From contig NC_049984.1 in the NCBI RefSeq assembly GCF_000003815.2, positions 15,584,765 through 15,648,764 on the forward strand: 64,000 nt of DNA, written 5' to 3'. Within the stretch, counting starts at the first letter, position 1. Each line of letters begins with the position of its first letter. Under the pieces are notes generated by a model. The model was not told where the DNA came from. It saw nothing but the letters and a program-made list of their open reading frames with translations, and did not search any database. Of this stretch, positions 12,289 to 64,000 are shown in pieces. A program made the translations under genes and the position numbers. The DNA is from Branchiostoma floridae. Lineage: Eukaryota; Chordata; Leptocardii; Amphioxiformes; Branchiostomatidae.

Positions 12289-13117
12289 AATAAACCAAAA
12301 TAATGAGCCGATGCAATTGATTTTCGTTATAGGGCAATGTTTGATGTATAAACGACTAGCGAGAGTGGATGTGGGCCATGGGGCTCCCCACACCAACACT
12401 CAAGAATACTACTCATAACAAAGTTACTGTATGTTTAGTAAAGAGGTGCGCCACGTACTGTAACACTGTGGGTCAAAGTACACAGACTTACACTTCAAAG
12501 AGGTGTGTTTTTTGTGTTATACAAAGATTGAAGCTTGCAGTGGACGTTACACATTTAGACATGCATGATGTTATTTACGTCAATATATATGTTAATGCTT
12601 ATTCAATCGTGATGCATATGTTTAACATGTGCTGAAATGATGGAGAATTCCGCAAGAGGCGAAATTAGCGTTGTGGGAACACTGTATTTCCAAATATGCT
12701 GATTTACACGTGATACAAACAGATTAACCTGTGATATAAGTTATCTGCACATGTAAATATCCCTATGTTTAATGTGCTGCAATACTGACTAATTCCGCAA
12801 GAGGCCCTTCGTTGGCTGCTTGAATTTACTATTACAAGTTTTGAATACAACATACAGCTCTTCAGAAAGTTAAGGGGTGTCTTTCCATTATTAAAAGCTT
12901 GCATCGGGTCATGTTCACCAGGTCATTTCATTGTGGTGTAGTCTAAACATTGAATAACATCAACCATTATGTAATGCGTGGTTTCCTCATTATGTCAGTG
13001 TTCCTCTTTTGTCTCTTTCATTTTCACAATCAACATTTCTCAATACAAACACACTTAAGCTCTATCCTTCGAAAATTTTGTTCATTGTCTGACTTTTGGA
13101 CTTTCGAGCTCAGGAGT
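12289..13117. other. Spacer between the two Ig-type genes
   Basis: No coding exon is seen. A short tandem duplication is present: ATGTTTAA followed by a segment ending TTCCGCAAGAGGC occurs at about 12617-12660 and again at 12764-12806. The promoter of the receptor kinase should lie here, but no clear TATA box was found. Confidence 0.45.
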
Positions 13118-22607
<9,490 letters not shown>

Positions 22608-40410: not shown

Positions 40411-40776
40411 TTTCTTTATTCTGATTATATGGTAGGGTTGTCCTACCTACCAAAGTATGCAAAAGTGTCTTAACCCATTGCAGCTCTAATAAGCTAGCGA
40501 CAAAACAAAATTGAAATTTAGGGATCTTTTGCCTACAAGTTTGGATCCTATTAAAATAACTGCTATCTGTCTAAAGTAACATTTGCTTTAATTTCCAATA
40601 ATTAGCTCATTCCCCTTTTTAAAGAATAGATAGACTCGTCTACATAATTAACCATTGTAAACAAAAGCGCCTTCGGTAAGGCAAAGGTCATAACATTTAA
40701 GAGGTCAACTCAAAGGTCACAACAGGGAAGAGGTAAACGTGAGAGTAACACGAAAGCACGGAAGCGTTTTAAAATT
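40411..40776. promoter_or_regulatory. Shared spacer between esterase copy 2 and AnmK (candidate bidirectional promoter)
   Basis: The two start codons point away from each other and are 366 bp apart. Bases about 40573-40713 are well conserved with the upstream region of esterase copy 1 (30515-30665), including TTAGCTCATTCCCC and AATAGA...GACTCGTCTACATAAT. Resemblance stops just before the AnmK start codon, so AnmK may use sequence that was first an esterase promoter. No TATA box was identified. Confidence 0.5.
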
Positions 40777-43700
40777 ATGGAAAGCACCATCAAAACGAAA
40801 CGTGCGCTGGGACTTATGAGTGGAACGTCAATGGATGGTATAGACGTAGCGCTTGTGGATATTATAGAACGTGACGACGGCCGTTTAGAGGTACAACAGG
40901 TAGTTGCGGAGACCTATCCCTATGACAAACAACTACAGGAGGATTTACGTGCTGTATGCTCGGGATGGCGCCTTACTCTTGAAGAACTGTGCGATTTGGA
41001 TGATCGCGTGGCGGAGGTGTTTGCCCAAACTGCGGTAGCTGTGATGGACAAGGAGGCAACCAAGCCTGAATTGATCGGTTCTCACGGACAGACGGTTTAC
41101 CACAGACCGCCCGAACGCACGAAGACAGGCGGAACCAGTCTGGGGTACTCCGTACAACTCGGCCGGGGGGCAGTCTTAGCCAAACGAACAGGTGATCATT
41201 ATTAACATTTTGAAATATATTCTTCTCATTTTTGATACTTTATCAAGATTATGATCGAAAATGTATAATCCGCGATATGGGAGGTATTTGGGTGTCTGTT
41301 TGCTTGTCTGTGTGTGTTTTCAAACTAATTTCCACATGCTAGGCACGTCGTAGACACTGAGAGGAAGTTAGGTCAAAGGTTCCAGAATAGGTCATCAAAG
41401 GTTGTCTCATTTCCTGTCTTCAAGTTCTATATCATATGCATGTCTATTGCCTTTGAATTTAGAAGGAAATCATTACACAGACAGATTCAATGAGAAATTC
41501 ACAATAACGAATTGCACCAAAAAACTTTTCATATTTCACAAATATATGAGATTTTCAAATTCTTCCGTTGCAGCCGACCGATGATGATGATCTTTTTTGT
41601 ATGGACGCAATCCCGCTTGATGGTATTTATTTGTCACCCAAATTCAGGTGTTGTTGTGGTTAGCGATTTCCGCAAGGCTGACATAGAGGTCGGAGGTCAG
41701 GGAGCCCCTCTCGTCCCCATGGTAGACTGGTTGCTACTGACTGACCGCAGGCTAACGCGAACGTCTCAGAACATCGGAGGGATTGGAAATGTGACGTACC
41801 TACCCGCTAATGGCAAACATCACCAGGTCTGTTATTCAAAAACATGATATTTATTTTTCTATAATTATCAGTAGGATAATGGCTTCTTTAGCTACCTTTG
41901 TGAAATATTAACTCAGTTGGTAAATGGATGGATGAAAACCTTATTTATGATAAACAACCAGACCACTCTTGTAGCATGGCGTGCTTTAACTTTATTGAAA
42001 ACAGCACTTTCGTTTTGTTGTAGTCGTAAAATAACAGCCTAGGCTTGGACTATCGCATGATTATTCCTGTATTTTTATATACAAATGCCACAGGTATTGA
42101 ATCTAATATATGTAATTTACTTATACAGCTGCGACTAATATTGACTAATAATGCCAAAAAAAATAACAACAGCAAATCAAGTGTGTAGTAATACACTCTT
42201 TCGCGTTACCAATGTGTACTTATTTGTATTTTTTACTATCATAGGTTCTTGGCTTCGACACCGGTCCTGGCAACGTTCTAATAGACATGGCTGCACAGTT
42301 GCTATTCAACAAGTCTCACGATGATGGCGGTAGACTTGCAAGGGGCGGAAGGATACATACGCCATTAGTGGGAAAATGGCTAGAACAGGTGACTATTAAC
42401 CTTGTATGCTCCAATTGTGTGCAGTGAGTTACATACTTAGAACATTAACTGTTTGGATTAAAAGAAGACCCAGAAACCTTTCCAAGTCCATACGAAAGAG
42501 TAAAAGCGATGGAATTTAAACATACTACTTAAAACATGCTTTGAGTCTTTGAAGACATGTTTTAATTGTGTATTTCTAACAAACATTATACATAACAATG
42601 TGCCATTATTCGGCATTTGTTGATAAATATTGTTTGATAGGAGTTTTTCCAGAAGCGGCCTCCAAAGTCTACAGGGAGAGAGTTGTACACGATGGGGTAC
42701 CTACAAGACAGGATCAAGGACTGCAGATCCCAACAGTTGTCAGACATGGACATCATGGCAACATTGACAGGTCAGCAAGTTCAAGTTTGAAACTTTATTA
42801 GAAAGACAACACACTGCCATTTACCACTACACTGATATGCCGGACTTAGAATTGTGTACTATTATATGGTTTTATGCTTGCCCATCATCATGCATAAGTT
42901 GATTCGTTATTGTCATTGCCATTGTTAATACAAGCTCCAACATTACTAGAGTAATGCTAACGCAGACCAAGCACATGAATGTCGACAATATGAGGAACTC
43001 ATCACATAGTTATCATTTTACTTTTATAGCTACCCTTGTTAAATATGCTGATTTTATCTTAAAACTACCGTATACTAACTGGAACTTAACTGTTAAAGAG
43101 GAACATGGCAAAACATTGTAATTGTTGAATAAATTCACAATGATAAGACTTGCTAACATATAGGCAAGTAAATCGTCAACATAACTACCACCTTCTACCA
43201 ATAAAGTAAGAATAGCTTGATTATCAGGTTGGTAAGTCATTGAATAATACAAGCATTTCTACACAACCAAGTCTTTCATTCAACCTATTTTCTATCACCG
43301 TCTGTCACCACGGTGGTCAAATACGGGCTCAAAACCTCCCATGTCTAGCCGAATTGGAACCTTGTTCCACGATATTCCATCTGACGTAATTCGAACCGAA
43401 CCCGTGTTCTATTTGGGGTCATCTGCGGTCGTTGCCGGTAAACACTGCTCTCTGGCCTTTTTTGCCAAACTACCTTGAATCAGCCAAAAAAGATAGTTTT
43501 TCACTAATGTAAACAATTTTCGGGACAGTACATCCATGCTATCACTTTGTTTGGGACCTGTGATATTTAACGAAGCTACTGACGTTTTTGTTGGTGACCT
43601 TGAATATTATAAGTGTTGTTTACACCGGTATCAATTACACCCTCCCGCTATCCGTGCGGAATGACATGCGTGCAAACTTCGTTTAAGATCGCGACCAAGA

Positions 43701-45497: not shown

Positions 45498-48400
45498 TTA
45501 TGCGGAATACCGGATAATCGGAATGGATATTATCAGGCTAAAGACATAGAGAGCCACGCACATCCGGTCTAGGACCCTGGCCATCTTCTCATAGTCCGTC
45601 TTTACTGAGTCTTCGTTGTCATCAGTCTTTGAGTGTTTAGAGGCAGTGAGGTTGTTCACAGCGTTACCCAAGTCACGGACGGTGTCCTGCAAACGCTTTA
45701 GTACTTCCGTTTGCATCTTCGGTTCTGCAGGAGTTGATTTACTGTAAGTGATAAAAGCACGTTTATTTTAGACAAGTCTTAGCAATTTTTGACCACATAT
45801 TGTAAGTAGAACTCTACACGAACTTCTTGTCGATAGTTCTTCGTGACTGAATATGACTGTCAGTGTACACTAGTACTCCACACGCGTACGCGATGTGAAT
45901 TCATTTAGTTTTTTTGAGACGAAAACTCCTCCTGTAACGTCTGATTCTTGCGATGTCTAAAATGCGCCCATGCTACTTAAAGATATTAATTTGGACTTTT
46001 AAGAAAATGTACACACCTTTTGTTTGCACCCTTCGACGCTTTAGCAATTTCTGCATCAGATGTTTGAGTGGAAACGCTGAAATAAAAGAATGCGATATTA
46101 CCGAATGGCCATTGCTGTAGACCTATAGAAGTACCTCAGCATGGTATTTCTATAGGGTTGCTGGCCCTTCCCTTTGAGGTAGTAAAGGTATAGTCCAAAC
46201 CGAGATGTCCTGACTCCGAAATTTATTTACGAGTTATTGGAACCAGGAGTGCAATTGTTAAGCTGCTACCAGTTGAACTACAGGGACATCCATACTATTT
46301 ACTTATGTACGTCTTGAAACAAAACAAAATTATTACTTGGTGGCGAAATTGAAAGGACTCTGAAGTGCAAGTTCGACCGAGTGTACAGTATAAATATCAC
46401 TTTAATTGGATACTTAAGTTACAGCGACCTACCTTGTCTTTTTCCTTGCAACATGAACCATCTCAAAATCTTCCACGTCTACTTGAAGGAATTTTAAAGA
46501 ATGTTGCTTCGTCATATCACCTAGAAGCACAATCCTGGCCAGATACCGGAGGAAGACTTTCTTAATGAGGGGTGGAAGATCTCCTTCCTTAAAGATACAA
46601 ACCACATTCTTCAGATATATTAAGACAATGGGTCACCACTGTAAAAGTAGTTATAGAAATGGTGCTCAATTGTGTTAGGGATTACGATCTGAGCGTAACT
46701 TTTTTGTTTCGCTTCATGTCGCAAACCCATAGCAAATACAATCTGACATGTTATGACTGCATTATGACTGGAGAGCTGTAAACATTTTATGTTAGTTATG
46801 ATCTAATAGACTGATTTCATAGCCACGCCCACATCCGTTAATAGGCATTTAAAGGCAGTCTGTATAAAGAGAGGCATAGTTGCAGGGAGGGAGAAAGGGA
46901 GAGGGCTATAAGAGAGACGCCCATACTTGTATGAGACTTACCCTTGAGCTAATCTTGATGACTATAACGGTGGCGATCAGAAATATCCCCATCAGACACA
47001 TGTACACTACGATCAGGATCGCTGGGGGTGGATGGGGAACAGATAAAAAGTTTATTTGTATGCTTGTATGCTAAACTCTATTCAGATCACGAACAAACAC
47101 CTACACTACCCCGGCCTATCCTAGATAACGTTTTACTAACCACTTGTTCAACTATGCATATATATGATTATAATAACAAAATGATGTCGGCATCTTGTAT
47201 TTTGCACTACGAAAAGCATCATTGGTAACGATAGCTCTCAAAGTTTGAAAAGCTCTCATTTTTATTCTTTACCTGTGATAACATTGATTATGTTACGATC
47301 AATAGTTTCCAAAGTAAATTCACGGTATACAATGTGGAACAGGGCAACTTACCTACAACAGGCATGGACCCTTTGGCTGGTAACACATCCGTGATGAAGA
47401 CCAAAGACACCACCATGGACAGCAATATCGTGATGCCAAAGGATAGACGATCTCCCTAATAAATATGAACCATGACGAATCTGAATCATATCACATTGAA
47501 TCACAAATTTCTACCGTCTTTTACATTGATGACAAACCAAATGTCTCTGAAAAGATACTGCAGTTTTGACATTAATATTTTTAAATTCATGATTTGATAT
47601 TACATGATACTCGTAATTAGGAGATATGAAGAACTGTGTTGTGATTCTTTTACTTGTTTCCTTTTTGGTTCGTCTTTATCACATTTTTTTCAATTTTTTA
47701 TCGTTTTAGAATCTTAGAATTGAGAAGTCTTATGTTACGAACTCTACTGACCTTGTCTATTGGAAGAATGAATGTGATGCACATGAGAATGGAGAGGATG
47801 ATCACAGGAGACAGAGTGGTACAGGAGTGGAATGTTGGGATGCGGTTAAAGGTCACGCTGATGCAACCCTGTCCAAACACTCCTCCTTCAACGGTTACCT
47901 GGAGAATAGATTGCAATACATTACACGTACATACGTACCCGTCCTTCGGCGTAACACACCAGCTTTGTGCGGCGCGGCATGGTTATATTATACTGAACGA
48001 CCTGTCACATCTAACTTTTGCACATCTATCTGAAAGCGTTCTTTAAAACTATCCAGGGAAAATTTTTGAACACATCAATCCTAGGTCGGTACAAACCTGG
48101 TGTGCTGCATCATGAGGTTATTTACCGGGAATGCAATACAAAGCAAAAACAAACAAACAAATAAACAAACAAACAAGTACATTTCACAAGATCATCCGCC
48201 AAGCAAAAATGGCAACCATTCGAGTTCTTACCCTGGCAACAGCTTACTCCAACATAGATCCTTGTACAGAATTTTCTCTTAACATTTCTAGCCACTACTG
48301 AAAAGACAAGCAGGCAAAATCCGTACCGTCCATTTCGCGTTCCATTGGTCCACAACTTCCTCCCCTTGGTCGCCACATTTCATGAAGTGTTCTATGTACA

Positions 48401-51400
48401 ACTCTGGTAGCTTCCTGTCGTCCCCTGGGTTCGGACAGTTAAACCGTTCTACACTTGTTGTCGTTCCCAGGCACACCGGGCACGTCATGGAGTCAAAGGG
48501 AAACAGCGCAGGCTCTGTAGAAAACCAAAGGACAGGCCCATTAGGAAAATGATTTGATTTAGGCCCCCTTTCCACTTGACGGCGCTCTCACGGCGCTCTC
48601 GCTGCGATGGAAAATTGGCCAGAGCGCGGTCAGAGCGCCGCGATGCCGGAAAAAGCTGCTCTAGTGGAATCTCTCCGGCGACCCCAGCGCGCTCTCACCG
48701 CGACGAAAAACTCAAATGTCAGCATCTTTTTATGAGCTAGCAAAGATTCGAAAGATTACTCAACGAATTTCAGAGAATTTCAAAGAACTAATCTTTTGAT
48801 GTATAGTGTATTTTGGTATTTTGGAAGTCATCCTTTTACGTCTTACATAACATTCAAAGTGTCGGATCAAGGCTGTAAACAAATCCAATTTTGGTCACTG
48901 TACATGTCACTCAGACTGAAATATGCACGTTTGTCTTGCTGTTTTTTCTTAAATCTGTCATGTAGCTTGTTCACCATAAATACCTTTATCATGCCACGTT
49001 ATTGGTGTAAATCATACAACACCGAAACACTTCAATTTAATTGAAAATGGCACTTCAATAATCTAAATGTACAGAATAACAGATGGAGAACAAGAAAAGC
49101 TAATGTCATCATGTTGAAATTCAAAAATTAGTTGAGATATGATAAACCTTTGTTTTTAAACCTTGCTTATTCCATCTCAGTTTGTTTAATTGTTCATCAC
49201 CGGTACATTTTGGACATTTCTCCGGGTTCTGTCTATGTCAAAAATACTTCTTCACAAACCGCAGTTGAGAGCGCAGAGAGAGCGCGGTGAGAGCGCCGTC
49301 CTAGCTAAAGGCCCCCTCTCACTTGACGTGCGGCACGCTTGCGGCATTGCTGCGTTCGAAAACGCAGATGTACCGCCACGGAACCTAGAGGTGCCGCAAG
49401 CAAACCTAGAGGTGCCGCAAGCAAACCTAGAAGTGCCGCAAGCAAGCGCGACGTTTTTTAAAAAGTTTAAAAATAACGCAAGTGGCAAGATGCCGCAACA
49501 TTGCCGCAACAGTGCCGCAACGGTGCCGCAACAGTGCCGCCACCATGCCCCAAGCAGTATCAAGGATATATTTTGCCTATTTTACACCAAGAATCAAAAG
49601 TAAACATCCTTTTATCACTGAAAAACTATTTTAGATGCATTTCTAATAATTTTACAGTGGTTTTCGATCCAGTAAAAACACTGCGAATTCCACAAAACTT
49701 ACCTTGTATCCGTATTCAGGGTTAACTTAAAAATGCATCTTTTGATTTATTTAATTGGAAGTAGGTCAGTATTTTATACTTGAAAACAAAAAATAAGTAA
49801 CTGGTTTATCGATTAACCTACGGATGTAGAGAAAAAGATTATCGTACAACGTTCAAAAATAATTTATTTATGTTGGATGATAACGAGTTTGCGTTTGCGT
49901 TATAACGTTACAAGCTAATCATTGCTGGTAGCCTGCCGCCGATAAAATACAAAATTGCAGTCATTCAAACCGATGGGCCATATTTTTCTCACTTTTTACA
50001 AATATGATAGACTTAGACATCAATAGGCTGGCAAGCCATCCGCCGACAATGAAAATACTCCGCGTCATACAAAATAAGTATGAAATATCAAGCATTTTCA
50101 TTTTAAAAATTTGCAAAATTGGTGAATAAACATATTAACATACATAATTACACATAACATGGTGCAAAACGTACACATCGATTCAAATCTGGTATATGGT
50201 TCGTGTCCGTTCATTTGGGTCATTTCCTTTACAGTAAAAGTCGTTCAAGGTTATTTATAGCATATGTATCATATAATTCATTATCATAAGGGAAATCTTT
50301 TCATTATAAATCTCATTTTTGGGCATTCTCATCATTTTACAGTGATTTTTCAAAAATTGACAACGCTGCAATTGCCAATAACATGTTCATTTAGTTTAGA
50401 AACGCAACAGTGCCGCACGTCAGTGTGAGTGCAAGACAAAATCGGCGAAATTAACACAGCAGTGCCGCAGTGAACGAACGCAGCAATGCCGCAAGCGTGC
50501 CGCACGTCAAGTGAGAGGGGGCCTTAAATTGGCATCATAAAACACTGTTGAGACCTATTGTGCTCGCTGTGCGCTCTGTTGGCGCTCACGGCGCTCGCTG
50601 CGCGCTCTCTCTGCGCTCATCGTTGGATCGCCGTCCACGGCGCTCTCACGGCGACTGTTTTGAGCAGGTTCAAAACAGTCGCGGAGGTGATGGCGACCAT
50701 GGCGACCATGGCGCTCCCATCGCGCTCTCTGTGCGCTCCCGTGGCGACCTTGGCGATCCCACCGCGCTCTCACCGCGCTCTTCCCAATTTGAGGTCGCAG
50801 AGAGAGCGCCGCGAGAGCGCCGTCCTAGTGGAAAGGGGGTATAAGTGAACGTAAATAGAAGTGTTTGAATTTCTTCGGCCCATTGGAATCGGCACTTTAA
50901 GAGCAAGGTCACACATCAGAGGGCCAAAATTGACCTTGAAACAGACATGGCAAACCCAACATACCTGTACCTATATTTTCATTGATGTAATAAAAAACGA
51001 CTAGAAAGGCCGGTATTTGCTTATGTCAGGAAAATGATTTGATTTAGCATTTTCACTCCACTCTCATCCTTTAGCAAAAATGGACTTTTCAAAATTGAAT
51101 TTGAAAACAAAAATCATCCCCTGTGAGAATGGACTGTTCATAATATACATTCTAGGTCTTGAAATCGCTCAAAATCCCCGTCCTTTGGACTGAAAGTCAC
51201 TTCAGGGAAAGACGATCAAATTTTTGTATACTAGCGTGACATTGAAAACAGATTGTTTTGTGTCGACAAGTACAGACTCGCACATTAGCACTTGATGCTC
51301 AGAATATTTACATGTATTACATTAACTATTGTTTATCGTTGACAACTTACCGAGGTCGCAGGTTGTTGTAAGTAGATCAATGATGTCCCATTCCACCTCC

Positions 51401-54400
51401 CCTTCACTGGTGACTGTCACAGGAGCGGCGGGAAACGTGCTGAACTTAGCATCTCCACTGTGGGCAGTGGAAACATGTAGACATGTTGAAGAGTAAAATT
51501 AATATGAAAACCAATACTTATTCAACATGCATGTAGTACACTGATCTTCACCACATAACGCTTGGTAAACCTAATACCCACATATGTTCATGTTTTGGTA
51601 CGATATTTTTGGTGAAATCCAAAGCTATACTGCATATATAAAGCAATATACGTCTACATTGTACTGGAAACGTTGCTTACTTTCTCATGAGGTAGATGTT
51701 AGGAATCCATACATCCTCTGTGGTTAGGACCAGCTGGGTAACATCACCATACCTCGCAGGTGTCCAGGACAGGCGGTTGTCTTTCCAGCGCTGGTCAATC
51801 AAATTGGGGCGTTATGTCACAAGTGCAAGCAAGAAAGAGAACATTAACACAATAAGGAACAGAGAAAAAAAAACATAGCCATTGAAAGGACATTGAAACC
51901 AGACTAATAAATTCAGGAACCATTGAACCAAGGACTTCAGCACACTTCCATGGCTCTCAAGCAGCAAACAATATAGACATTGGATGAGTAGAAGTATGTC
52001 CAGAGCCATCTAGCGACTCTATTTATCATAGCACATAACTGGTAGGAAATACAGTGCACATAACTTAACAAGGACTCACCAGACGGAAGGCGAATGATCC
52101 GAACATGTATTCATTTTTCTCATCCTATAAAAATAAAGAAAACACATGATGGAAAAATGTAGAATGATGCACCTGCTCGCTAATGATTCAAAATACATTT
52201 CAAATGATTCCCAATAACATATATGACATAGCAATAACAATTAATAAAACAATATATGACATATCAATGTTCACAAGTAGGGTGGACCAGCGAGTGTAAA
52301 CTTACTGCGTCTATTATTTCGACCATGGCTGCCTCGAATGTTACATTCACATGATCCGTGCTCGGAGGAAGCTGAGATAGGTACCGTTCTGTGTCCAGTA
52401 ACACATGGGACAGCTGCAGACTGTAGTCAGCTGGACAACAAAAATACAAGACTAGTGTAAACATAAGATTATATGTTTCGAGCATTGTTGGGGTACCGAT
52501 GGTGTATGGTAGGGTTTGGGCCCAGAACCCATATACATGTAGGTCCTGGGTTCAACTCCCATGGCATGCTCAATGTTGTGCCCTGTGGTAAAGTGCTACA
52601 CGAACCGATGTAACTGTCATATGTACCCAGCCTGGGTGGTCCTAGGTTAGGGGCGTCCTTCGGATAGCACGTTAAATGCACTCTCCAAGCAGAGGTTAGG
52701 CTCCCGCCGTTTTTTAACGTTTTTTTAGTCGTTTTTATCGGGCTTTCTATTTTTTCATTTTTCTTGTACGCCAGCTAAAGGTATTGACACATCAAGATAA
52801 AATACAAAATAGAAAGCCCGATAAAAACGACTAAAAAACGTTAAAAAAACAGCCGGAGCCTAACCTCTGCTTGGAGAGTACGTTAAATTGCCCATGGAGG
52901 TTCGGAGTTGGTGGAGAGCCGAACCTCGAGCACAGCAAAGAATCCACAACGCCTTCTCGGTGTGAGTTCATCAAATAAATCTGTCTGGACGTGCAGCTTG
53001 TACTCTTCAGTACAAACCTGGTGTGTTACGACTTGTATACAATACATGCAAAAAAACGAGAAACAAAACAAAACCCTTCTATCTGACACATATCAGTATC
53101 AGTAAACAACAAGACCAGGGGGGGGGGGTTACAAATAATGATAGCGTTGTGACTGCCAAATACAGGTGTCGTTTGCATCAATAAATAGAATAGGTTTTAT
53201 CTCAGGAAATGAAACAATTTGCAGGATATGCAGGGGCGGATCCAGGATTTTGCAAAGGGGGGGCGCATATGCTGTCGCACCTCAGGTCGTGGCCGAAGGC
53301 CACGAATGCGCAGCGTAGCTGCGCGGGGGGAGAGCACGAGAGGGGGGTTTCCCCCCTCTCGTTGGGGGGGGGGTTTGGGGGGGCCTCCCCCTAGAACTTT
53401 TTAAAATAAAGAGGCTCTCTGGTGCATTTTAGAGCCATTTCTGTGTAAAAATAACCAACAAATCAACACTGACTTTTAGGGCTGAACAAATATAATAAAC
53501 GAAAGAACACTGATTTTTATAGTTAGCAATCTCACATTCAACAATCATATTTTTGGCATGGGGGAACGGCCATCGAAACATGTCTTGAGCCGGGGGGAGG
53601 GCCATTGAAAAAAAATGCCTATTAAAACGGGGCCTTAAAAATACAAGCAAAATGTGCCCCTAAAACGCAGGAAATGAAGTTTCAGGTACCGGTGGTCAAG
53701 ATTTTAATTTTTCTCTGGACGTGCCTGGCGACGGCTTGCGCCTCCGGCGCCCACGACGCTCGTCGCCATCAAAAATCTTTTCCCCTGACAGAAATGTCAT
53801 TACATTTAGCATAGTCTACCAGCAAAGTTTATCCCTCAAAGTGCAGAAAATCCTGTTTCAGAGGGTTCAAATTTCAACGTTTTTCTCCAGACCTACCTTG
53901 CGACGGCTCGTGCGCTCAAAGTTGTGAAAATACGTTGGGGGCGTCGTCGCTAAAATATAAGCTAAAAACCCTACTAGAAAGGCTATTAAACTTAGCTTAG
54001 TCTGCCAGCAAATTTGTCCATCAAAAGTTAGGAAAGATCGTTTCAGATAGTCAAGATTTCAAAATTTTTCCGGGAGAGCATGCCACCGGACCCCCTAGGA
54101 TTACGTCAATATAGTTCGCCCTCCCCATAAGAAATTTGCTGCAGCCGCCTCTGTCGTGTAATTCCATGTTCGCACGAAGTTTACGAAGACTAAAATTGGT
54201 ATCAATATCAATCCTGTGTGCATCGGTTCTTTGTAAACGGAATGGTTCACGGACGGCAACGGGATGAAACATTATTTACGATGTTTACTTTCGTGACGGC
54301 GGGCTCTCTGCTGCGTGCATATATGACGTAATCATGCATATGATGGCGCGAAAATTTTTCGGCAAGTTTGTTGGTTGGCCGAAATAACTCCCGTTTTGGA

Positions 54401-57400
54401 ATGATTACAGCAGTATTGAAGCGGTTTTCGTCACGATATCACTAAAATGTACCCAAGTCTCTTCCAAGTAGAACATTAATTTAGTTTCTTTTGTGTAAAT
54501 ATCGTACATGGTGATGATGTGTAGTGGAAAAGATCGCCGTTTTTTTTTTACCTGACCCATTTTGCATCAGCCCTCCCCCCCGGTAAATATCGTCAAGTTC
54601 CTTAGCGGAGACATATCGTAAGTTTGACACATTTTTACTCCTGACATTTACCGTCACAGTATGAATGAATGAATGTTTAACATGTATGGTAGCTTGCGTC
54701 GCTCAGTCCAAATGGGCTAATAGGGCACCAAAATAGCAAATATAATAACAATATTAGAGTCAGATGGAACATAAGCGAGTTCCGAAGGAGGGCGGGAGTA
54801 TTGCCAACGTCCTGGTTACGAAACATTCTGGCTATGCCCGCAAAGACCGACACAATGAGGAAGTAAAAGCGGGAGGAGTGCGCCTTGGTATTGTTGGTTA
54901 GCGGCTTTATATTGTCGCCGCTTCGCTGAAACTTTCGCTGATTTTCTGGATTCATTTGTGGAATTCCTTTTTTTTTGTGGTCCAGCCGAACTTTTTTTTG
55001 GGTCCAGCCAAAGGGGGGGCGCGCGCCGGGTGCGCCCCCCCTAAATCCGCGCATGATATGGAACATTCAATATTCAGATTTATCGTGCCATACCTGAACA
55101 GCTGATGTCCGTTTTACTCCACGTCCCATTCTGTGTGCATGTTATCCTGGTCTCCTCAGTCCCCAGGATGTAGCCCGTGTTACACGAGATGAACACCGTT
55201 TCTCCGGGCATGTAGAAGTTCTTCACCGGACTTCTGCGCCCAAACGTCACGTCAGGGGGAACTCCGCATCCAATGGCTGGAAATGTGTGAGATTTTAATC
55301 GTGGTACAACAGATATATTGAGATAGACCTCAATGTATATAAGATACGCAAAATAGTTATATAAGATACGCAAAAAAGCAGTTTCTCAAGCAACAGGATA
55401 CTTTGGAAACTTTGAGTCTTTTCGGGTAGCATCCGTTGCCTTGAGTCAGTAACTAATGCCCTGTAACTTGAATAACTGTTTTTTGCGTATTGAGGGACAC
55501 CATTCCATATTCTTATCATGATTGAATACAGTATGCCAAAGCTGCGTTCCGAGTACGCATGCACAGCGACAAGAATTGTGGGTAATGTGTCAAAGGTCAA
55601 GCCCCTGAGACATAAACAAAGCACATCTGGAAATCGTTATGTAAATCGAGACAATGGCCGATCGGCAGAGAGTAGTCAGGGGCCTTCACCTTAGATATGT
55701 TACCCACAATTCCTGTCACTGCGCATGCGTACTCGGAATATTGAACGAGCATATTGTTTTCCTGTCATAGCTGTGTGCAGATTTTCTACGAAACAAATTA
55801 GTTTAACAACAAAGTAAGACAATAATCACTCTTGTATTTACGACAACACTTTCATGTGGGGCCGCATCGTGATATGACAGTAATTGGGTGCGCATTTGGG
55901 AGCGCATTGTTAGCAGCGACACCTAGCTGCAGTGTGCCATACTACCAGTTAGTGACAGACGGTCACCGAAACTTCAGCTATGACTTTATGGCTTGGTTGT
56001 GAATAAAAAAAAACCTAAAATTCCTTTCCAATGAAGTAAGTTGTCTTACCATTGCATGGTCTCAAGCCGCATGGTTCCATGGCGATTAGCTCTTTGCCAT
56101 TTGCTACTGTTTTCACCATGCAAAATGGCGCTTCTGTGTTTCCTGTAGAGAATAAGTGATTAAAAAGATTTAAAAAGTAATTGGCAGTATAGAGAAGAAC
56201 GATAATGTGAACAATAGGTTCTTCATACAACATTACATATATAATAGAGAATTGCTAAACTTTCTTTCCAACACTAAGATAATGTAGGGACTTACCCCTA
56301 AATTTTAACATTAAAAAATTTACATTAAACATAAATCAACATTACATATATACGAAATAAATGTGTTTTACCTATTGCAAAATTCCTACAGTAGTTTTCA
56401 CGCGGGTCTGCCCAGTTGTACTTGGCTATCAGCTGAGAAGACAGAACGCTTGTCCAGTTCAAGCACGTACTCCCGCCCTCTTCCGGTAGGGTCGTCATGC
56501 CCTTGTAGTTCTGGCCCGTGCCGTAGTAACAGTCTGGAACAAGAGTCATAAGATTTTATACCTCCGTGAAATGTTTAGAGTTTCTGGTATGTTTGGTATT
56601 AATGTCGTTAGTCAAGTACGCAAATGACGTTTTGTTTAACATCACAATTAATTGTGCACTGACTACTTCTATCGCTTTATTGCGGAAGGTGACTAGCATA
56701 TGGAACATTTTAAAGTGCGAAAACACAAACAGATAAAAGACAATTCGCCTCCGCGCGCTTTATCTTTGACCATATGATCTGAAAGTGTCATGTTTGTCAA
56801 CACAAGGCTGATGAATGACTAATTCTGGTAACTCTTGAACTTCACCACCTGTCACTCTAGCGTCCTTGCTCTGATCTTCACTTCTTGTCACTCTGCGGTG
56901 AGCGTGATTAGCATGTGCATATAAATTTAATTTTAGTTTGTTTGAATTTAAAAAAAGCGAGCGGTACCTTCATCGGATTCCAAATTGACGCAGTCTGTAC
57001 TGTTCAGCAGGTTGCAGTCCGTTGATTCGAATGATGACCCATTTGCGAAGACTAATGGACAAGATGACTTCACTTCTTCGCACCATGATCGGCAAGGTAA
57101 CTGCTTTTGTATCCTTGTTTTGCCATTTTGAACAAGATACATTATTGTTAATAAACGTAAACACCAATCTGCTCGGATTTCAGAAGAGTAAGGAGGTTAG
57201 AAAAACACAATTCGACTGCAAGAAGATAAGGGATGTGTTACAGTTATGTTTCCTTTACATTGCCGCGCATTGTCTTTGATATTGTTCATCAGAGCAAAGG
57301 GGATATAGCCTATAAGTTCCTTATTCAGATCTTGCATTTTAGACCTATTTTGCACCGCAAAACAACGAGCTTTATTTTACAACTTAATGCCAATATCACA

Positions 57401-59789
57401 GTTGAAATATTCCACAACGCACACTGTACCATTTGTTTTTTCTAAATAGAAGAGACAACAAATTCACCTTCTTCTGACAATGTTCACGTGACAGTGAGGC
57501 ATCAACAATGAACAGAGGAATTGCCGGAGCTGCAGATGACAAGATGCGTTGGCTTCCCTCATCTCCGACCAATGTTGTGAATTCGGGACCTCGTTGAGTG
57601 CTTGACCGAACATGTTGGGCCCTAATGTCTTCTGATAGCCCAGGTCTTTACAGTAGTTGTAGAACTCATCAGGGGCGTCGGAACAACGCGGTGATCTAGG
57701 TGGATCTGTTTTTGTTTGAAAATGAACAAATTAGATATAACGAATGTTTCACATGTGGTGGTTATACTAAAACATAAGAAACTACGAAAATTTGGTTGGA
57801 AAATGCGCAAGAGTACAGGCACAATTTTGAATTGAGACAGTCACCATATCATACAAGCAAAAACAGAAAGTATTACAGAAAAATTACAACAGTGCGAGAA
57901 ATTCAGTTGGAGGGTTACTAAGCAAAGGCCGCTATTTACCGAATACCATTTTATCTATGATAACAAAGATAGTTTCAGCCACAGCGGCAAGATTGATCGA
58001 GTTATCAAAACGTAAAACCAGGATGAATAAATAGACTCTTTTTACACAACCACTACTGTATTTACAACGACCTTTCGGCGACCGCTTGTCATCTTTCTCA
58101 TGGCACTTGATTGGTTCGCAGTGCACTGCAGTACGACGTGTCGCTGCTTACACTTACAGATACGGTCACAAACATATGTCGATACTTTGCGTTTCTACTA
58201 ATAAAACTAGAATGCAAGCAAAGCAACAATCGCCCACTACAGAACTTACCTCGTCCATCTCCTGGACATGGCGTCACTGCATGAAACGTTGCCGAGAATC
58301 CGGTCCTGCGAACGGTGGCATCGGACACGAATTCTACCGACAACGTTTTGGTCGCTGACGTGAAAGGGTCTGGTGGCGTATTCCCACAAAACTTTCCTGT
58401 GAAAAAGAAGGAAATCCGTGTTTTTTTAAAGATTTTAAAAAACATATTCAAGCCAATTTTGAAATTTAAAACATACAATTGAATATGAAAACGCAAGCAG
58501 GCTTTATTGTTTTGATCATCACACCACTGGACACCACGCACCACATAATGCAACTATGCACAAATTTGATGGAAACGACAGAAGCAGGGAACTTGAAACA
58601 GTCTAAAAACATAATATTTCTGACCGAGACAATGACTTATTTGTGAACATTTTGATTTTGAACAGAGTAGTCCCGGGATACCAGTTATTGTGAAGAAATC
58701 ATTCACACAACTGTCTTACCAATTAGGACATCTCCGCTGTTTATTACATCACGATCGTACACAGCTACGTAGTCCCACGTACAGTTCGGGTTGATCTCCG
58801 ACTTTTCCACGTCAAACTGGTCGAACGTCAAATGTACGCAGTGGTCAGAACTGGCTTCAATTTGCCAACGGATGTTTGTGTTGTCTGTAGGAGAGCCACG
58901 AAGCAAAGAATTATGTAAGTGAAGGTCTGACAAATTGCTGAAAAGTCCCCATTCTACTAGACGGTGATACATACATACATACATTGTGGTGGGTGACCTC
59001 GCTGCGACCATGGCAAACTTGGATTTGTGTAAATTTAATCTTTGATTCTATAATTAAAATATCATGCAAAATCCAAAATATGACTGAAAAGACAGCAAAA
59101 CACACAAAGCTGAAAAAAAATTAGATTAGTTTTTTTAAATAATTTTTGGAATGGGTGTATCGCAGGGTTGTTGCAACGAGGTCGCACAAAGTCGCTAACA
59201 GTGGAATCATTCATATCTGGCATGGGTGAATGAATAGAAATAATGTATCGCAGTCGAGATCAAATGATAACAACTTTGTCTTCAGGGTCAATCTAGACTG
59301 ACAGTATCTAGTAGATCAAAGAGCCCATCACATTTTCTGTAGCACTGGGCCACACAGTGCATTCTTATTTAATCATTGCAGGAGGGGCGGCTAGTGTTTT
59401 AATTGCGTATTTAGCTATCATACTCTTTCCTAAATACTGAGTACTAAGCAGAAAGAGAAAGCAGTATCGACCATACTTTTTAAAGTCTTTGGTATGAACT
59501 GCCGGGCATCCAACTCAAGACCTAACAACTGCAAGTCAAAAATTCTATCCACTTGCCAATTTCACCGATATCATATCTAGTACGTACTTGGATATTTCTC
59601 TGGAAAGCCCGGGCTGTTGAACGCACCACTACCGGCCTGCAGGCTGATCTCAGTCGGCGATACTCTGTCTCCCACCGCCGACATTGTGGGAGGTTCCGGT
59701 GACCCTGGTAGTGGCCCCGTACCTGGCTGGCCACACGCCAGTGAAACAAGAGCGAGCAAGACACTCGCAGTAGAAGGCCAACAATCCAT
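45498..59789 (-). CDS. Chimeric Cys-loop channel with CUB-Frizzled-kringle-sushi ectodomain, 899 aa
   Basis: Exons, minus strand: 59789-59588, 58884-58720, 58396-58250, 57705-57468, 57113-56968, 56533-56372, 56142-56050, 55276-55094, 52430-52306, 52124-52080, 51790-51681, 51457-51351, 48514-48327, 47898-47752, 47455-47353, 47021-46942, 46587-46433, 46076-46017, 45741-45498; all phases agree (2700 nt). Signal peptide 1-20; CUB about 45-165 (FNSPGFPEKYPNNT, CTWDYVAVYD, FCG); Frizzled 179-292 with 10 Cys; kringle 301-383 with 6 Cys (NYCRNF); sushi 388-444 with 4 Cys; channel ligand domain from 446, with a Cys-loop of exactly 13 residues (C572-C586, FPFD); M1 660-682, M2 689-709, M3 721-746, M4 878-896. 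M2 has D at -1', R at 0', L at 9' and D at 20', as in cation channels. Loop-B Trp and loop-C CysCys are absent. The 2.7-kb intron at 52431-55093 is the one junction where two genes could have been joined wrongly, but no start codon with signal peptide was seen there. Confidence 0.82.
48561..50840. mobile_element. GGCGCTCTC inverted-repeat element, carrying a nested MITE
   Basis: The left end AGGCCCCCTTTCCACTTGAC is followed by GGCGCTCTCACGGCGCTCTC. The right end has GAGAGCGCCGTCCTAG followed by TGGAAAGGGGG, its inverse complement. Further GGCGCTCTC arms lie at about 49270-49304 and 50560-50660, so the element may be composite or internally duplicated. Arginine-rich frames across it come from the repeat. 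It lies in the intron between channel exons 12 and 13. Confidence 0.7.
49309..50524. mobile_element. Nested MITE with identical 50-bp terminal inverted repeats, TAA target duplication
   Basis: Bases 49309-49358 and the reverse complement of 50475-50524 are identical over 50 bp (AGGCCCCCTCTCACTTGACG...). TAA flanks both ends (49306-49308 and 50525-50527). A 3-bp TAA/TTA duplication fits the PIF/Harbinger superfamily. The interior is AT-rich with no transposase. Perfect arms point to recent insertion. Confidence 0.85.
52494..52950. mobile_element. tRNA-like SINE interrupted by a MITE
   Basis: GGTCCTGGGTTCAACTCCCATGG contains a good B box (GGTTCAACTCC). The sequence runs on to ACGTTAAATGC at 52669-52679, is broken by the palindromic element, and resumes with ACGTTAAATTGCC from 52880. 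The duplicated ACGTTAAAT stretch would be the target duplication of the inserted element. Confidence 0.55.
52680..52879. mobile_element. Nearly palindromic 200-bp fold-back MITE
   Basis: The left arm ACTCTCCAAGCAGAGGTTAG, then GTTTTTTAACG and TCGTTTTTATCGGGCTTTC, is mirrored by GAAAGCCCGATAAAAACGA and CTAACCTCTGCTTGGAGAGT. Arms of about 75 bp pair almost without mismatch around a short loop. Same ends as 29219-29352. Confidence 0.85.
53226..55050. mobile_element. 1.8-kb non-autonomous DNA element, GCGGATCCAGG-type ends
   Basis: The left end GGGGCGGATCCAGGATTTTG leads into GGGGGGGCGCA. The right end TGCGCCCCCCCTAAATCCGC is its inverse complement in outline. The interior has frame remnants only, with a repeated GTCGTCGCCATC/GCGACGGCTTGCGC-type segment. 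It fills most of the intron joining the sushi exon to the channel ligand domain. Confidence 0.6.
55545..55741. repeat. Fold-back repeat, about 65-bp arms
   Basis: TTCCGAGTACGCATGCACAG and AGAATTGTGGGTAA near 55545-55590 pair with TTACCCACAATTCCTG and GCGCATGCGTACTCGGAA near 55693-55740. It lies in the intron upstream of the sushi exon. Confidence 0.7.
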
Positions 59790-62013: not shown

Positions 62014-63717
62014 TCATTCTTCTGTGTTACCTGCAGCAAACCTGATGATAGGAATAGAGACGACGAGGGAAAATATATAGAGAACAATACACATCCTGTC
62101 TAAGACCCTGGCCAAGTTCTGATAGTCCGTCTTCGTTTCGTCTTTCTTACGAGTCTTGGATGTTCCTGAGATCGCGAGGGTGTTCACGGCATCAGCGAGG
62201 GCGCTGATGGTGCTTTTCAGGGAGAGCATCAGTTCCATTTGGTTGTTGGGTTCAGCCGGAGTTGGTTTACTAGAAATCGAATCAAAGATGTTAGGTTAGT
62301 TAATATAGTTTAGTTTTCCCCCTCACCAATGGAACAGTCCAGTCATGCGTCATTGGAGGATGGTGTTAATAGATCTGACTCGTGTGAATGCACGCTGTTC
62401 TACTACGTCCTGTGTTATTTCTGGCAGCAGAGGGATAGAAGCCGGATTAACCAAAGAAAGGTACAGTCATCAGAGGAACTTAAACAATGTCAGGGTAAAA
62501 TGTAATGGCAATAATCCTAATGGGTTAGGAGAGGAAGTCATAGTCTGTTGTTTGTGTTGGTTTTCAAAGATAGCTCTTAAGAGAATGGGGATTTGTCTAA
62601 TTAATTGATTGATTGTATTGCATATCCAGTAAATTGCCTCATGGCGTAACACACGCTTATATTGGAGAGTACAAACTGCATATTCGGACAGATGAATTTG
62701 ATCCAATCACACCGTGAAGGACGCCCATGCGTTTCAATAAGTGCGATGTGTTATTTTACGTGCTCAGAGAGTGGCTCTCCTCAAACACGACGCGGGACCT
62801 ACATCTAACGTCCATTTTTCTCTGTGCGAAGTTAGGAAATTCGCGTTAAGTGCCTTTCCTGATGCACTTGTATAGGGTCGATAAATATTAGGGTACCCGA
62901 ACCCAAGACCTCTGCGTTCTGGACCTTAGACCTTTTTGCCACAGCTACGTCACCATTTCTGAGACAAACTGCAGTACTAGATATGTTAAAGACGAATTGA
63001 TATATATACTTCCTAAAACTTGGCTGATAAAGCACAGGTATGAGGTAACGGAAACCTACCCTATTTTCTTCTCTTCATCGTTGATCGTCTTCTCAGCATC
63101 CAAGTTTACTTCAAGGACACACTTTTGAGCTGGGCGTTGTTGCTTCGTCAAATCCCCGAGTAAGACAATCTTCGCGACGTACCGGAGGAAGACCTTCTTG
63201 ATAAGAATGGGAAGATTTCCTTCCTAAAGGAGAAATAGAAAACTGATTATTTATCTTCTGAATAAATATAGTAAGAGAGGTGCTTAGTGTGTAATGATGA
63301 CCGTCGTACTGATTGTCAGCTGAAGATGTGATGTCAGGACATATCAAATGAGGGGCTTGTTGTAACTTGCTGAAACAGTACCAACAGAACCACTAAGAAA
63401 AATTCCTTTTACAGACTGGTGATAGTGCCCAGAGTGACCTATGACTGTGTGCGTTGTCCTGAACTGTCATCATGGAACAGCCCATGATGTACCTGGCCCG
63501 TAACCTAACCCGGTAAACAGAAGATACTCGGGAGCTGTAATACGGCTGGATACCAGACTACCCATAACCAGAGGTTGCTCACTGAACGCAGAGGGCATTG
63601 ATTGATAAAGGATGAATGGGGTAGATTTTTTACTTACCCAAGTGCTGATCTTGATGACGATAACAGTGATGAGCATGAATGTCCCCATCATGCACATGTA
63701 CAGGACAAGCAGGATCG
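62014..63717 (-). CDS. Second Cys-loop channel, C-terminal part only (M3 to M4), runs off the window
   Basis: Three exons on the minus strand: 63717-63638 (M3, LLVLYMCMMGTFMLITVIV), 63223-63060 (EGNLPILIKKVFLRYVAKIV, the amphipathic MX-type helix after M3) and 62269-62014 (M3-M4 loop end and M4, DYQNLARVLDRMCIVLYIFS, then stop). Each matches an exon of the 45498-59789 gene in phase and order, so this is a tandem paralog. The small exon corresponding to 46076-46017 is absent: the MX exon joins directly to the M4 exon in matching phase. The M4 end is longer, by AGNTEE-like residues. The M2 exon would be expected just beyond 64000. Whether this copy also has a CUB-Frizzled-kringle-sushi ectodomain cannot be told from the window. 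Confidence 0.87.
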
Positions 63718-64000
63718 CTGGAAGTACATATAGACAAGGCAAATATCAGATACATTCATACATATGGTATGAACAGTGTGCTGTCGACAACCCTTGCCGC
63801 TACTATCAAAGAACAAAAGAGCTCGCCCCATAGCATTTCGAAAAAATAGCTTATCGTGGAAGAGAGGCTATGATTCTGGAATCCGTTTTCTATTATACAT
63901 ACCCGTCACTCATGAGTTTGAAATTCCTTTTCTTACTTCATCCTGTTGATATGTTTAGACCATGGGAATTCAAAGATAGGCAATCGTTAAGTATTCTGCT

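Follow-up and report, generated by a model that had tools for sequence, protein, structure and literature searches.

A gene in Branchiostoma floridae is predicted to encode a single nicotinic-type channel subunit with four extra extracellular modules at its N-terminus. Within the 64,000-nucleotide stretch of DNA that we analysed (hereafter, the window), the gene runs along the minus strand and spans positions 59789 to 45498. Its sequence places it among about seventy related loci, a family with a membrane-proximal sushi domain. Kringle, Frizzled and CUB domains are found further out in some members.

An independent rebuild of the gene yielded GT-AG introns and compatible phases throughout. With 19 exons the product has 900 amino acids, not the 899 given in an earlier note. 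Without the exon at 48001-47939, 18 exons encode 879 amino acids. These read, in order, as a signal peptide, CUB, Frizzled, kringle and sushi domains and a full Cys-loop channel. The 21-amino-acid exon was rejected as spurious. It is probably not an exon because its acceptor looks weak by eye, because paralog 2 (the adjoining gene on this contig, also on the minus strand) yielded no counterpart and because it is absent from paralog 3, where the equivalents of the flanking exons are joined across an intron of ~155 bp. Hence, of the nineteen exons in consistent phase described earlier, the phases and splice sites fit and paralog evidence leaves eighteen.

All exons are on the minus strand; we keep the 19-exon numbering, in which the rejected exon is number 14 (47939..48001). 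Exon 1 (59588..59789) is modelled to encode the signal peptide MDCWPSTASVLLALVSLACG, recognised by eye from its hydrophobic start, and the beginning of the CUB domain. A similar exon is present in paralog 2. According to the splice model and Pfam, exons 2 (58720..58884) and 3 (58250..58396) supply the middle and end of CUB, exons 4 (57468..57705) and 5 (56968..57113) the two parts of Frizzled, exons 6 (56372..56533) and 7 (56050..56142) the two parts of the kringle, and exon 8 (55094..55276; phase 1-1) the sushi domain. Exon 5 has a weak-looking acceptor (57113, ...aaaacaag), which leaves the precise position of the Frizzled splice less certain. Intron 8 (52431..55093) marks the boundary between modules and channel. 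Exons 9-12 (51351..52430; individually 52430-52306, 52124-52080, 51790-51681 and 51457-51351) encode the ligand-binding domain as far as the first Cys-loop cysteine. Exon 13 (48327..48514), placed using the splice model and comparison with paralog 3, provides the remainder of both. Exons 15-17 (46942..47898; 47898-47752, 47455-47353 and 47021-46942) encode the pre-M1 region, M1, M2 and M3. The intracellular loop, M4 and stop codon fall in exons 18-19 (45498..46587; 46587-46433 and 45741-45498).

A Pfam scan of the translation gave all six families, CUB, Fz, Kringle, Sushi, Neur_chan_LBD and Neur_chan_memb, in the order previously claimed; the 18-exon model keeps the same six as the 19-exon model. 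CUB (89 bits), Fz (55) and Sushi (37.8) are above the Pfam cut-offs. The kringle (E=8e-8) scores 32.9 bits against a curated cut-off of 34.3, 1.4 bits short. The modules had also been credited with full cysteine sets. This holds for Frizzled (10), kringle (6) and sushi (4) but not for CUB. Four cysteines were counted in the CUB stretch, including one in the linker that follows the domain; the customary first pair seems, by eye, to be absent.

ROR and MuSK are receptor kinases with one transmembrane segment that, like the window gene, combine Frizzled and kringle modules in one receptor. The earlier note had compared the Frizzled-kringle pair to ROR. However, we found no special likeness. No chain named ROR or MuSK occurred among the best 60 of 84 solved relatives of the Frizzled-kringle stretch. 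The nearest, among the matches listed, were HGF, sizzled and Frizzled chains. No Ig or kinase domain was found in the Pfam scan of the 879-amino-acid model with E up to 0.01. A ROR origin is thus unsupported by the structure-chain comparison. Wnt gating, also raised in the earlier note, is conjectural.

The C-terminal half was described as a complete nicotinic-type channel, and our analysis agrees. Both Pfam domains are present (Neur_chan_LBD, 94.1 bits, cut-off 26; Neur_chan_memb, 71.6 bits, cut-off 28.1). The Cys-loop is formed by C572 and C586, with 13 residues between and FPFD inside. The pre-M1 arginine is R656, and there are hydrophobic peaks for M1, M2, M3 and M4. Among solved chains, nicotinic alpha and 5-HT3A come closest. 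Nicotinic acetylcholine and 5-HT3 receptors, the best solved-structure matches, share with the window channel the ligand-binding domain, the Cys-loop, four transmembrane segments and an acidic ring before M2. In the window gene the acidic -1' position is kept as D688 in GDR. The gene differs from these receptors in its four N-terminal modules, changed acetylcholine-pocket positions and a pore reading GDR..SFG instead of GEK. Together, the residues point to a cation-selective pore with the coupling parts kept.

Y93, W149 and W55, which we take to be aromatic-box residues of the acetylcholine site in nicotinic receptors, are not kept. In the HMMER alignment, read by eye, M537 and T593 align with the Y93 and W149 sites; A499, also by eye, occupies the W55 place. 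No adjacent loop C cysteines, the CC pair of alpha subunits, were found in the relevant stretch of the 879-amino-acid model. Pocket loss at loop C was judged by eye because the HMMER alignment breaks there. Since the gating parts are kept and the pocket looks changed, the channel looks able to gate, and not via acetylcholine at the usual site. Hence, the residues suggest that the agonist would be another small molecule or that the subunit would be a non-agonist partner.

A different reading is that two neighbouring genes, one for a secreted CUB-Frizzled-kringle-sushi protein and one for a channel, were merged by a wrong gene model. The sushi-channel gap of the window gene is 2.66 kb and contains one ATTAAA, and the fusion is read here from genomic sequence. 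Lancelet annotation faults are also known. PMC6071037 is sceptical that lancelets form novel domain combinations at a high rate and warns that novel architectures can be such faults. In our case the warning is answered by paralogs, not RNA. The last three exons of paralog 2 (62014..63717, minus strand), encoding M3, the loop and M4, are inside the window and the rest lies beyond it. Apart from the rejected exon, all 18 exons of the window gene are matched in paralog 2, in unchanged order and with 40.5 to 88.6% identity per exon; one extra row at 33% is a stray intron match. It has the same six Pfam families, with the kringle (28.6 bits) and Neur_chan_memb (26.8 bits, from a model cut after M3) below cut-off. 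Its sushi-to-channel gap is just 607 bp. A simple filter for exons with a signal-peptide-like start and a phase-1 donor was applied to the gaps of both tandem genes. It found no such exon in 52431-55093 or in the gap of paralog 2, and in 20 shuffles of the window gene's gap it returned 0.2 candidates on average. The earlier note's single-gene fusion stood up to this search for a separate signal-peptide exon. The sushi exon ends in phase 1 in all three genes read (the window gene, paralog 2 and a member on contig C16, the last by eye), and a phase-1 junction argues against two genes.

We also compared the window gene with paralog 2 by codon. For the ectodomain, dN was 0.336 and dS 1.105 (413 codons). 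For the channel up to M3, the values were 0.113 and 0.684 (302 codons). With dN below dS, both halves appear to be under purifying selection on average, and the ectodomain appears to evolve faster than the channel.

The genome (513,431,437 bases in 431 contigs) was searched with the pore exon of the C16 member. This gave at least 133 rows, with the M2 row of the window gene at 67%. We used 123: 72 at 47% identity or more, 50 below and one fragment, which was dropped. The 47% border was chosen by eye after viewing the list, at a drop from 47 to 44. A module was counted when its match lay on the same strand as the pore exon and no more than 25 kb upstream of it. Detection was by likeness, and for CUB by an ectodomain query, so counts are lower bounds and apparently missing modules may be undetected. 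Among the 72 loci, at least 68 had sushi, at least 26 kringle, at least 24 Frizzled and at least 9 CUB; at least 69 had any module. None of the 50 less similar Cys-loop pore rows had a module upstream on the same strand, among the matches listed. As controls, again among the matches listed, opposite-strand matches upstream were present, for each module, at two of the 72 loci. Same-strand matches downstream were present at 6 loci for sushi, 2 for kringle, 7 for Frizzled and 3 for CUB; we take these for tandem neighbours. For opposite-strand matches downstream the numbers were 2, 2, 0 and 0, respectively. With a 20-kb limit and 81 channel loci, at least 45 had a module upstream on the same strand compared with 2 on the opposite strand; downstream, the numbers were 6 (same strand) and 2 (opposite strand). 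Among the matches listed, one of 83 other ligand-domain loci had a module, a Frizzled match 16.9 kb away.

As detected, the module sets of the 72 loci were sushi only (27), kringle-sushi (18), Frizzled-sushi (10), CUB-Frizzled-sushi (5), all four (4), Frizzled-kringle-sushi (4), Frizzled only (1) and none (3). For one of the three loci without modules, C11:103985, a sushi match lies 25.09 kb upstream, just past the limit. Sushi and pore exons are a median of 3.5 kb apart, with two long outliers of 12 and 23 kb. Such recurrence of the sushi-pore pairing, at no fewer than 68 of the 72 loci, together with the empty gap search, led us to reject the two-gene reading, which we now regard as highly improbable. 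The motif GDRISFG was present at 15 of 15 other family loci where the pore exon was read. In a tree of 23 rows and 74 columns, 13 mosaic rows grouped with support of 98/98, in a region where the program warns of long branches. Loci C256 and C8:17.3M have equal scores, and several rows on C16 and C230 are near-identical. These may be haplotype pairs, so "about seventy" counts assembled loci, not proven genes. The earlier note did not anticipate such relatives. The fusion is real, with the corrections given above, and no one-off: with about seventy related loci in the same genome, we describe a family rather than a single oddity.

All four modules were detected, among the matches listed, only at four genes on contig C6, the window gene included. 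These four mosaic channel genes span ~85 kb (G000:C6:15630262-15715189), with one pair on each strand. The minus-strand pair comprises the window's gene (45498-59789) and one that overlaps the window end (62014-64000). Elsewhere, Cys-loop loci at G000:C13:11.57-11.70 Mb combine SFG-type pores with GEK or GER; among the matches listed, they have no modules. The tree places them beside the mosaic clade (support of 96/95 for both groups joined and 91/65 for the C13 loci by themselves), and they may resemble a pre-fusion state. Frizzled and kringle matches akin to those of the window gene also occur at G000:C165:6435-8859 (minus strand), on a contig with no channel row among the matches listed; this locus is perhaps cut off or a second haplotype. 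Within the window, a plus-strand open frame at 40648-41205 resembles a bacterial enzyme of cell-wall recycling, anhydro-N-acetylmuramic acid kinase; its best match has E=9.9e-42 and scores 143 bits. The score is below the full-length cut-off because only the first part is present. Horizontal transfer into the lancelet and contamination are both possible. By eye, a second plus-strand open frame, at 12947-13669, resembles an immunoglobulin-type domain and has a signal-like start.

Among the open-licence papers listed by our searches, we found no description of this mosaic channel family. The accessible text of PMC6354393 reports amphioxus nicotinic gene expansions and does not mention kringle. 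The inventory in PMC4795631, in the part available, deliberately discarded terminal parts outside two signature domains and therefore would not show such fusions. The same part states that links between this channel type and other domains had already been seen at genome level, which tempers any claim of novelty. Lancelet exon shuffling is biased to 1-1 phase exons, according to an extract of PMC4284660, and such shuffling could be a way in which these genes arise. Among known systems, the prokaryotic pentameric channel DeCLIC likewise has extra domains ahead of the ligand domain; it is bacterial and these are two jelly-roll lobes. GABAB R1a also has sushi domains fused ahead of a transmitter receptor, but it is a G-protein-coupled receptor whereas the window gene encodes a channel. 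We know of no CUB, Frizzled or kringle domain in GABAB R1a. Its sushi domains target and stabilise the receptor, and LEV-9 (sushi), LEV-10 (CUB) and Hig (sushi) act in nicotinic receptor clustering (PMC9083331, accessible part). The latter three are separate polypeptides, whereas here sushi and CUB modules are fused to the channel.

With moderate confidence, we favour a one-gene mosaic subunit of the sushi-channel family in which the modules anchor the channel, the pore passes cations, and the subunit either binds a small-molecule agonist other than acetylcholine or is a non-agonist partner. By analogy with these other proteins, the modules, possibly five-fold on a putative pentamer, would act as a built-in extracellular anchor. 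This would hold or concentrate the channel where secreted or surface proteins mark a place. One polypeptide would do the job done for nicotinic receptors elsewhere by LEV-10, LEV-9 and Hig, whose CUB or sushi domains sit on polypeptides of their own, in parallel with the role of the GABAB R1a sushi domains for their receptor. A near-universal sushi domain beside the channel, with variable outer modules, fits an anchor with a changeable address. Against it, the faster-changing ectodomain also fits a recognition role.

The fused modules could instead be a ligand sensor, in which binding of a secreted protein (Wnt-like, matrix or protease-like) to the Frizzled, kringle or CUB domain would directly open or close the pore. 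In its favour, the usual agonist pocket appears changed while the gating parts are kept. However, 27 of the 72 loci are sushi-only and 18 kringle-sushi, with Frizzled and CUB undetected there (detection being a lower bound), which makes a Frizzled ligand unlikely as a common trigger. We consider this reading unlikely. A broader reading seems to us improbable: that lancelets evolved a class of about seventy pentameric channels on which extracellular proteins act, through the fused CUB, Frizzled, kringle and sushi domains, to gate or set them. If true, these would be ionotropic receptors whose ligands are proteins, and secreted signals would be converted directly to ion current. Octopus chemotactile receptors are nicotinic-derived, and the lancelet set might similarly be diversified chemical or microbial sensors with modules that widen binding. 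The number of loci, spread across many contigs, the changed pocket and the faster evolution of the ectodomain are consistent with this, but average purifying selection on the ectodomain speaks against it, and we give it a small chance. It is very unlikely that the subunit is a non-conducting or dominant-negative partner; the changed pocket positions would agree, but the M1 to M4 peaks and the conserved GDRISFG motif speak against it.

Added N-terminal domains had been thought absent from animal channels of the Cys-loop class. PMC9897478 (2022) states that the eukaryotic relatives of bacterial pentameric channels lack such domains. An animal genome with about seventy module-linked channel loci runs against that statement. 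In this genome, CUB and sushi modules of the kinds that form separate receptor-clustering proteins in worms and flies appear to be built into the receptor chain itself. The family would thus be a natural experiment on module function.
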